Assembly (NCBI RefSeq): GCF_037076455.1
Contig: NZ_AP028679.1
Span: 2,743,501-2,807,500 of the forward strand
Direction: 5' to 3'
From: Desulfoferula mesophila
GTDB taxonomy: Bacteria > Desulfobacterota > Desulfarculia > Desulfarculales > Desulfarculaceae
Length of the DNA: 64,000 nt
Below, one piece after another: positions 5,357 through 7,556 of this stretch. The notes under the pieces were generated by a model. It saw nothing but the letters and a program-made list of their open reading frames with translations, made no database searches and was not told the origin of the DNA. A program made the translations under genes and the position numbers. How positions within the stretch are numbered: position 1 is the first letter of the stretch; each line of letters starts with the position of its first letter.

Positions 5357-6364
5357 TCAGGAAAACTTTTGCCAGATGTGCTTCCAGGCCATGGCCACGT
5401 TCAACACCGCGTCGTGCAGCGCCACCCGATCGACCTCGGCCAAGAGCGCCGCGCCCGCTTCGTCTTGTTCGAACAGCGACTCAAAGGGCGCCGGCTCCTG
5501 GGAGGCCGGCTTGTAGGGCCACTTGGCTGGCGGGGCGATTACGCTGGCCACCCCGAAGGAGGCGCGGCAGACCAGGACCATCTCTTCCCAGATGTCCCTG
5601 GCGCCCAGCTCCGGAATCGTGTCTGCGAATTGCAAGGCGAATTTCTGATCGATGCTTTCCGCCTGGTCGAGGACTTCCTGGGCGTCGGCCTCGTTTTCCA
5701 TCAGCTTCTTTTCGGTAAAGTAGGTCCCGACTTTCTTGCTCCAGTGCTTCTCCAGTTGCATGTGCAGGCCGTTGTTGTAATCGGAAAGGTCCCGCTCGTC
5801 ACAGTGGCAGGGCATCAGGGCGTCGGCTGCGAAATGGCTCAGCATGAAGAAAAACAGGGCGATTTGGCCGGAGGAACAGCGTAGCGCCGGTTTGACCTTT
5901 TCGATGAAGGCGACCCGGCCGGGCAGAATCTCCTGCACCGGCTGATCGCCCAAGATGAGCATGTCCAGGTTGTTGATGGTCAGGGCCATGGCCCGGTTGG
6001 GCAGGTGTTGCCCTGGCGGGGGATCGGCCTTGTAGGGCTGTTTCCACCAATCGCTGTCCAGGATGTCCTCGTGTTCGGCCAGAAAGGCCAGCACCTGGCG
6101 CTCAGGCCCGAGCTTTTGGGCCAGCTTTTTTTGTGAGACCACGAAGCGCGACTTCAAAAATCCGTCGTAGGGCCCCATCTTGAAAATGTGGTTCTGGGTT
6201 TTGGAGCCGCCCAGCTTGGCGTCGCGCTTGTCGGGTATCCAAGCACCGATGGCCGCCTCCTTGACGTGCGGCCGCAGCAATTCGACAATCCGGGGAACCT
6301 GGTTCTCCGCCTCTAGTAAGCGGATGGCCCGGATGGCGATCCAGGCGTGGGTTCTCTGATCCAT
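5357..6364 (-). CDS. Zinc-dependent phospholipase C / S1-P1 nuclease fold protein
   Basis: A 335-residue protein without signal peptide or membrane segment. Its histidines and acids reproduce the trinuclear-zinc ligand spacing of Bacillus cereus phospholipase C. It has H6, D45, H59 (14 apart), H177, D181, H187 (H-x3-D-x5-H), then H201 and E205 (14 further on, H-x3-E). In the Bacillus enzyme the set is H14, D55, H69, H118, D122, H128, H142, E146. The N-terminal Trp that ligates zinc in secreted members is missing, because no leader is cleaved. The local motif SHFAADALMPCHCD resembles HFxGDxxQPLH of the superfamily. Substrate unknown: phosphodiester, lipid or nucleic acid are all possible. AAAGGGGGG precedes the ATG. 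Confidence 0.7.
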   Translation of the reverse strand: MDQRTHAWIAIRAIRLLEAENQVPRIVELLRPHVKEAAIGAWIPDKRDAKLGGSKTQNHIFKMGPYDGFLKSRFVVSQKKLAQKLGPERQVLAFLAEHEDILDSDWWKQPYKADPPPGQHLPNRAMALTINNLDMLILGDQPVQEILPGRVAFIEKVKPALRCSSGQIALFFFMLSHFAADALMPCHCDERDLSDYNNGLHMQLEKHWSKKVGTYFTEKKLMENEADAQEVLDQAESIDQKFALQFADTIPELGARDIWEEMVLVCRASFGVASVIAPPAKWPYKPASQEPAPFESLFEQDEAGAALLAEVDRVALHDAVLNVAMAWKHIWQKFS

Positions 6365-6499: not shown

Positions 6500-7492
6500 T
6501 CAGAAATTCCAGCCCCAGAACTTCAGGAAACCCGGCAGGTCGCTGAGGTCCGAACTCTGGCGATACCAGGGCTGCAGGCTGGTGTAAAGGGGGTTGCCCT
6601 TCACTCCATAGGCCTTGTCCATGCCCACCGTGCCGTCCAGGCACCACCATCCGATGAACATGGTCTCCCAGGGCTTCCAGGCCCCCTTCACGTGGCCCTC
6701 CAAGACCCCGTCCTCATAGAACAGGCTGGTGGTGCCTTGGCCCAGGGGCAGGCGGCGCAGCTCGTCGGCGGGCCGCAGGGGAGTGGCGTGGGTCCGGTAC
6801 AGGTTGGGCTCGGCCAGGCGGGCGGCGGGCTGCACGCCGAGGCCCATGACCCGGTGTTCGCCGGGGCGCACCTGAACCACCAGGCGGGGCCGCTCCTGGC
6901 CACCGTAGTCCAGGCGAGCCGGGAAGCTCTCGCCATAGAGCTCCACCGGCTGGTCCCGCCAACCGGGGGGATAGGCCGCCGCCGGGGTGAAATTGGTGGG
7001 GGTGAGCGAGGTGTAGCAGCCACAGGTGCCCAGGGTGACCACCAGCACCGGCTGGTTGGCCTGGTCGATGATCACAACCACGAACAGGCCCATGTTGCTG
7101 CCCGCGCCGATGAAAAAGGGAATCAGGCTCACCGGGGTGGAGGGGAAGTGAACCCGGTAGATATAGGCGGTGTAGGAGCCGTGGGCGGCCTGGAAAGGCA
7201 CGGCCCGCCAATACATGGCCGGACGGGCCGGGTCCATGACGATCTGTTCCTGGCCCTGCGCGTCCCGCGAGGCCACGGGCTGGCCGATGCGGTTGTAGGC
7301 CTGCTCCCAGCCGTGGATCACCCAAGCCGGGGCCAGGCGCCGGGCCGTGTCCGGCCCGCCCTGGGCCCGGTACAGCTCCTGGGGCCCCGGCCCGGGGCTG
7401 ACCTGCTTCAGGTGCATGCAGCTCGGGCCCAAAAGCAGGGCCAGCAGAACGGCTATCGCGCCTGGCAAGCGAAGCGGCTTAGGGCAAGGCAT
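6500..7492 (-). CDS. Putative lipoprotein of unknown function
   Basis: Starting at ATG 7492 the protein has 330 residues. Its N-terminal segment is PCPKPLRLPGAIAVLLALL, followed by an imperfect lipobox LLGPSC. It is therefore probably exported and lipid-anchored, although Pro at -2 is unusual. A farther ATG at 7537 would add 15 residues and give a worse leader. The mature part contains a hydrophobic stretch around SLIPFFIGAGSNMGLFVVVI that could be a buried strand or a membrane segment. It also has a Trp-rich C-terminus (WKPWETMFIGWWCLDG). I do not recognise a family. It lies 64 bp after the small TusB-like gene on the same strand. Confidence 0.65.
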   Translation of the reverse strand: MPCPKPLRLPGAIAVLLALLLGPSCMHLKQVSPGPGPQELYRAQGGPDTARRLAPAWVIHGWEQAYNRIGQPVASRDAQGQEQIVMDPARPAMYWRAVPFQAAHGSYTAYIYRVHFPSTPVSLIPFFIGAGSNMGLFVVVIIDQANQPVLVVTLGTCGCYTSLTPTNFTPAAAYPPGWRDQPVELYGESFPARLDYGGQERPRLVVQVRPGEHRVMGLGVQPAARLAEPNLYRTHATPLRPADELRRLPLGQGTTSLFYEDGVLEGHVKGAWKPWETMFIGWWCLDGTVGMDKAYGVKGNPLYTSLQPWYRQSSDLSDLPGFLKFWGWNF

Positions 7493-7556
7493 GGTCCCCT
7501 CATGACAGAGCCACCGCCGAGACGGCGGCGGCCCCATGGTCAGGCGAATAGCGGGC

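Follow-up and report, generated by a model that had tools for sequence, protein, structure and literature searches.

The gene at positions 5357 to 6364 of the window (the whole 64,000-nucleotide stretch that was analyzed) raises the question of how a protein with no export signal might complete a metal site of the type found in secreted phospholipase C (PLC), a site to which residue 1 of the mature enzyme itself contributes. The features that bear on this question are listed below.

5357..6364 (stop codon included), minus strand: PLC-like gene, encoding a predicted cytosolic protein of 335 aa assigned to the PLC/P1 superfamily (open reading frame, purifying selection, profile matches)
6362..6364, minus strand: ATG, Met1, the proposed N-terminal amine/carbonyl metal ligand and the sole possible ATG/GTG/TTG start in frame
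6359..6361, minus strand: Asp2, a residue disfavoring Met removal; D/N/K in 12/12 clade members (methionine aminopeptidase [MAP] specificity from an excerpt of PMC12930335)
6347..6349, minus strand: His6 codon, first side-chain ligand; invariant in 12/12, aligning with residue 14 of Bacillus cereus PLC
6230..6232, minus strand: Asp45 codon, catalytic/ligand Asp; invariant in 12/12, aligning with residue 55 of B. cereus PLC
6188..6190, minus strand: His59 codon; invariant in 12/12, aligning with residue 69 of B. cereus PLC
5870..6169, minus strand: enlarged H59-H177 region, approximately residues 66-165, with WW..PYKA..HLP and an invariant D134 (clade alignments)
5834..5836, minus strand: His177 codon; invariant in 12/12
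5822..5824, minus strand: Asp181 codon; invariant in 12/12
5804..5806, minus strand: His187 codon; invariant in 12/12
5762..5764, minus strand: His201 codon; invariant in 12/12
5750..5752, minus strand: Glu205 codon; invariant in 12/12

The reading frame and its eight side-chain ligands

Upstream of the ATG lies a stop codon followed by four open in-frame codons (AAG GGG GGT GTA), none of which is ATG, GTG, or TTG, so a signal peptide could not fit. A mis-called start hiding a signal was rejected because the upstream frame is too short, and the claim of an earlier note on this DNA that the protein carries no export signal is thus borne out. Both hallmarks of the secreted B. cereus type, a signal peptide and a mature N-terminal Trp, are lacking: there is no signal, and residue 1 is Met. 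Purifying selection acts on the gene, with NG86 dN/dS values of 0.16/1.28 against L001 and 0.15/1.61 against L002, a ratio of ∼0.1 relative to congeners.

The residues D45-x13-H59 and H177-x3-D181-x5-H187-x13-H201-x3-E205 are present at the positions and with the gaps claimed for them, and together with H6, which the earlier note counted but did not name, they give eight side-chain ligands. A chance origin of the spaced motif was rejected, as it was never reproduced when the protein was shuffled 20,000 times. The H59-H177 interval is 118 residues, compared with 49 between the aligned positions of B. cereus PLC, in agreement with the proposed excess of about 70 residues. Beyond congeners, the clade of 12 proteins to which the window protein belongs comprises L007, L008, L142-L145, L148, and L260, plus the viral-contig protein L163 (L146 duplicates the frame of L145); L009, a weak profile match, was dropped as a chance match sitting in a methyltransferase-like frame. 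All eight ligands are kept in 3/3 congeners and in 12/12 clade members, with identities falling as low as 22%. In the alignment of the 12 members M1, H6, D45, H59, H177, D181, H187, H201, and E205 are invariant, and further invariant positions include K62, D134, D189, R191, W208, C266, W327, and W331. The H187-H201 and D45-H59 gaps differ among clade members, and constraint on the spacing itself was rejected for this reason.

Scored alone, the window protein reaches 16.7 bits against PF00882 (Zn_dep_PLPC), below the gathering cut-off of 26.8; no match to PF02265 (S1-P1_nuclease; gathering cut-off, 29.5 bits) is listed for it, and a PDB search with the single sequence gave no matches. Eight of 10 clade members match PF00882 at E values up to 0.1. 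L007 scores 24.0 bits and L001 20.0 bits, both under the same PF00882 cut-off, and L008 scores 20.1 bits against PF02265, also below its cut-off. When a profile of the 12 clade members was compared with 177,635 distinct PDB sequences, the best match was B. cereus PLC (E = 1e-4 to 3e-4). Listeria PLC came next, and S1/P1-type nucleases matched weakly after it; in the alignment to PLC, the first His, the Asp, the next His, and the HxxxDxxxxxH...HxxxE block are all in register. In the profile search for the zinc PLC family suggested by the earlier note, the clade profile finds B. cereus PLC, but the window protein by itself stays under the PF00882 cut-off. Comparison by hhalign of the clade with 40 signal-less PF00882 members gave a probability of 94.5% (E = 8e-8, columns 2-328), and with 30 exported PF00882 members it was not significant (probability, 1.6%). 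AF2 models of the window protein are of very low confidence (pLDDT of 32 with 3 rows and 34 with 4 rows; pTM of 0.24 and 0.30), and Foldseek with the second of these returned nothing meaningful (best E of 0.69, to TRPV channels). NCBIfam, PHROGs, and PADLOC do not name the protein. Taken from these sequence comparisons, its membership in the PLC/P1 nuclease superfamily is well supported; the proposal of a cytosolic member with an enlarged H59-H177 region is also supported, given that the clade profile recovers PLC and S1/P1-type nucleases.

B. cereus PLC (1ah7, 2ffz, 2fgn) and Listeria broad-range PLC (8cqm) share with the window protein the order of the ligands and, from the second ligand on, an identical within-block spacing; they lack its 69-residue enlargement, and sequence identity is very low. 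Both are secreted and have Trp as residue 1, which in B. cereus PLC lies 13 residues before the first His; the window protein has Met, five residues before it.

Residue 1 and the position of the start codon

The spacing from Met1 to H6 equals that from the mature N terminus to the first His in exported relatives, and the same spacing of five is seen in three exported PF02265 matches (L255-L257). P1 nuclease also has its first His five residues after residue 1, and in S1/P1 nucleases the last ligand is Asp, not Glu. The S1/P1 enzymes further resemble the window protein in having the catalytic Asp at mature position 45 (S1 Asp65 counted from Trp21; AtBFN2 D45), and differ from it in being secreted with Trp at residue 1. 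According to a passage of PMC5201275, the N-terminal main chain of these nucleases (PF02265; S1, P1, TBN1, and AtBFN2) coordinates zinc, and excerpted text of PMC10576769 describes main-chain atoms of W1 binding metal 3 in Listeria PLC, citing earlier work in which one residue added ahead of W1 abolishes activity. Because S1 nuclease and Listeria PLC use the main chain in this way, we take the ninth ligand to be the amine plus the carbonyl of residue 1. The N-terminal Trp ligand had been described as absent; Trp is indeed missing, but the ligand belongs to the main chain and can be provided by any residue 1, and to judge from the sequence, the ninth ligand of the window protein is probably not missing. 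Met1 might be only an incomplete substitute for an aromatic side chain, since the same excerpts of PMC10576769 report that W1A, W1E, and W1K reduce Listeria PLC activity and that W1F does not.

How the N terminus is placed in relatives was surveyed with 132 PF00882 loci (L010-L141) taken from among the matches listed, of which 130 were kept; L138 (without the core motif) and L067 (wrong frame) were dropped. The survey is almost wholly of one phylum, and two of the 130 loci (L040 and L041) come from plasmids, L040 being an Aliarcobacter plasmid protein annotated "zinc dependent phospholipase C family protein." Conservation of HxxxD..H..HxxxE in this set is by construction, because the motif was used to choose the frame; the first His, the first Asp, and the second His played no part in that choice and are present in 130/130. 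Among the matches listed, 90 of the 130 loci have a hydrophobic stretch and 40 have none, so the suggestion that an intracellular member would be a new setting for the superfamily is not supported. In the exported proteins, again among the matches listed, the residue at -5 from the first His follows a signal-peptidase-like Ala or Gly in 90/90, the cleavage junctions being A before W (85), A before F (2), G before W (1), A before V (1), and A before L (1). The nearest start codon of the signal-less proteins among the matches listed is at -6 from the first His in 40/40, residue 2 being Pro in 32, Ala in 7, and Ser in 1; no other start codon lies within 60 codons upstream in 27/40, and one is present in 13/40. 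With Pro, Ala, or Ser second, methionine aminopeptidase removes the initiator Met. Signal-peptidase cleavage and a -6 start with Met removal are thus both predicted to place a free amine at -5.

Among window-clade members, the start codon itself is at -5 in 12/12 (in L007 and L143 it is a GTG at exactly this position), and residue 2 is Lys (7), Asn (3), or Asp (2). A MAP profile in excerpted text of PMC12930335 has basic residues at position 2 blocking Met removal, with Asp poor and Asn intermediate, which for the three Asn members counts against a kept Met. The signal-less PF00882 proteins are like the window protein in being cytosolic and in their ligand set and predicted N terminus at -5, but they start at -6 with Met predicted to be removed, whereas the window clade starts at -5 with Met predicted to be kept; they also lack an enlargement between the second and third His, and many have D-x3-H in place of D-x5-H.

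The reading that we favor, and regard as likely, is that the product of the gene is a metal-dependent phosphoester hydrolase of the cytosol, with a nine-ligand site in which initiator Met1 would be retained as the ninth ligand. Such a site would be complete and probably hold trinuclear zinc, with eight ligands contributed by side chains and the ninth by residue 1 through its alpha-amino nitrogen and its carbonyl. Secreted relatives would create residue 1 by removal of the signal peptide; in most cytosolic relatives, which start at -6 and have Pro, Ala, or Ser as residue 2, MAP would take off Met; and in the window clade, a -5 start with Asp, Asn, or Lys second would leave the deformylated initiator Met in place as a ligand. 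We infer Met1 retention, metal binding by Met1, enzyme activity, and substrate alike, and name a phosphoester, perhaps a phospholipid, as substrate only with low confidence. We read the overall pattern as the outcome of selection, acting on cytosolic enzymes, for an N-terminal amine that binds metal. An N-terminal amine that serves as a metal ligand only after processing is familiar from the histidine brace of lytic polysaccharide monooxygenases, which are secreted copper enzymes of a fold unrelated to PLC/P1. No report joining the initiator Met, or its excision, to the PLC/P1 superfamily was found in the open-licence full-text literature.

Breadth of the coupling between start offset and residue 2

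YdjM proteins, which are described as inner-membrane associated, offer a second family in which start position and residue 2 can be compared. A passage of PMC8557891 links YdjM (PF04307) to PLC and S1/P1 by profile comparison, and one of PMC3482391 ties Het-C to a PLC/P1-type fold in polymorphic-toxin work. Of 30 YdjM loci (L225-L254), 25 were aligned, and the first His is retained in 23. Twenty of these 23 start at -5, with Asp or Glu as residue 2 in 20/20; the other three begin at -6, one each with Ala, Cys, and Pro second. In L229 and L239, Gln replaces the first His and the M-D start is kept. YdjM therefore has the start/residue-2 coupling in common with the window clade, but its later ligands differ.

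Weak PF00882 matches were also classed, by eye, using 30 of 50 rows (L164-L193). Twelve are of the exported type and 12 start at -6 with a small residue second; of those at -5, five have a resistant residue 2 (four being YdjM-like) and one is an exception. One of the -5 starts is L193 (MQLDMH; MQLDMHYYGTYALA...), of a PF00882-like family with Gln second, which is possibly a further case of a retained initiator Met. The sole clear exception to the coupling is the divergent L189 (MVPASH), a -5 start with a MAP-sensitive Val second; Pro at position 3 may protect its Met, and excerpted text of PMC12930335 has Pro at position 3 disfavored. Combining the 40 signal-less PF00882 proteins with the 12 weak matches, -6 starts have a small residue 2 in 52/52, and -5 starts have a resistant one in 16/17 (11 window-clade members plus L193, L177, L182, L184, L191, and L189). 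We do not rely on the corresponding Fisher value of 9e-15, the weak matches having been counted by eye and kinship ignored. No matches came from searching plasmids with L145, L148, and L055 or phages with L145, and for this reason, the coupling is seen outside the phylum of the survey only in the plasmid proteins L040 and L041.

Trees considerably reduce the number of events behind these counts. A 142-row tree has a single transition between export and cytosol, and the window clade represents one change; start offset changes twice on the YdjM tree, for which the start peptides were already known, so that only the tree and not the counts serves as a test. Many independent switches are rejected by both the PF00882 and YdjM trees. 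Because the changes are few, what underlies the coupling is a handful of events (approximately four switches) rather than 100+ independent proteins, although all of these coordinated start switches are in the predicted direction.

We lean slightly toward a wider proposition, that across PLC, P1, and YdjM the free amine of residue 1 binds metal at the catalytic site not only in secreted members but also in those of the cytosol and membrane, with start position and the MAP rule replacing signal peptidase and with the window clade and most YdjM proteins using the initiator Met. If this is true, the enzymes would be inactive until deformylated (and, in the -6 group, until Met is also removed), and their activation would be tied to ribosome-associated N-terminal processing. 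N-terminal tags or extensions would then be wrong for many uncharacterized bacterial "zinc-dependent phospholipase C" proteins, a simple sequence rule would help to recognize active members in the cytosol and to set start codons right, and the initiator methionine would have a new role.

Genomic context and rival explanations

Orthologs of the PLC-like gene with 76% identity are present in two other genomes, with the gene order of the window seen in L001, and the gene is found in three of eight genomes of the genus. Its upstream neighbor is the following.

6500..7537, minus strand: gene for a 345-aa predicted lipoprotein without a Pfam match, present in 8/8 genus genomes

We regard this as a neighboring gene and not as an established functional partner. 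The two genes flanking the PLC-like gene adjoin each other in 3/3 examined genomes that do not have it, and this, along with its presence in 3/8 genomes, marks the gene as accessory. Neighbors of clade members include the lipoprotein gene (window and L154), DUF2846 (L149), DUF2278 (L150), a patatin-like gene (L151), and phage head genes (L163). In L151 (932-5247, minus strand), the clade member lies 111 bases downstream of a gene for a 1067-aa patatin-like phospholipase on the same strand. The homolog at L163:5001-5990 (IMGVR_UViG_3300007510_000145; start MKQTTH) is embedded in a phage head/packaging module (with genes for portal, terminase, Mu-F-like, and major head proteins), is encoded on the strand opposite to it, and looks like a phage cargo gene. 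Phage and plasmid searches with the single window sequence gave no matches, nor did a viral-contig search with an early alignment of the protein.

An ordinary cytosolic hydrolase of the PLC/P1 fold, with a third metal site lacking an N-terminal ligand and a start kept simply because the first helix begins there, seems to us improbable. It gains from the behavior of TatD, a family without an N-terminal ligand used as a control (30 loci, 26 anchored), in which 18/26 nearest starts are at -5 from the first motif His; a conserved start alone is thus weak evidence for a ligand, and the few independent switches on the trees point the same way. The coupling of offset to residue 2, though, is what TatD is without, and an ordinary hydrolase does not predict that coupling (52/52, 16/17, and 23/23 in YdjM) or the match to a signal-peptidase site in 90/90 exported proteins among the matches listed. 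Far less probable again is a degenerate, noncatalytic metal protein, or one holding a metal other than zinc (iron/zinc mixtures, for example, are reported for Listeria PLC): the sub-threshold PF00882 score would fit with degeneration, but the persistence of all eight side-chain ligands throughout so divergent a clade and the low dN/dS ratio would not.

A different kind of explanation concerns the role of the gene, which might be an accessory, horizontally mobile element in phage-host conflict rather than a housekeeping function; this we think unlikely, while noting its compatibility with Met1 as a ligand. Its patchy occurrence between genes that are otherwise adjacent, the L163 member in its phage structural module, and the L151 member following a patatin-like gene are all consistent with such a role. 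Against it, PADLOC matches none of the window protein and three others scanned, neighboring genes vary from one genome to another, and the copy in the window is surrounded by housekeeping genes. Retention of Met1 as the ninth ligand remains the reading that we prefer.

The genome of the window also encodes an exported-looking PF00882 protein (L003:1015-2214, minus strand), with ..AEA before and VGPFSH after the junction. Its YdjM protein, L253, which is outside the 25 aligned, begins MPTPLGH and fits the coupling.
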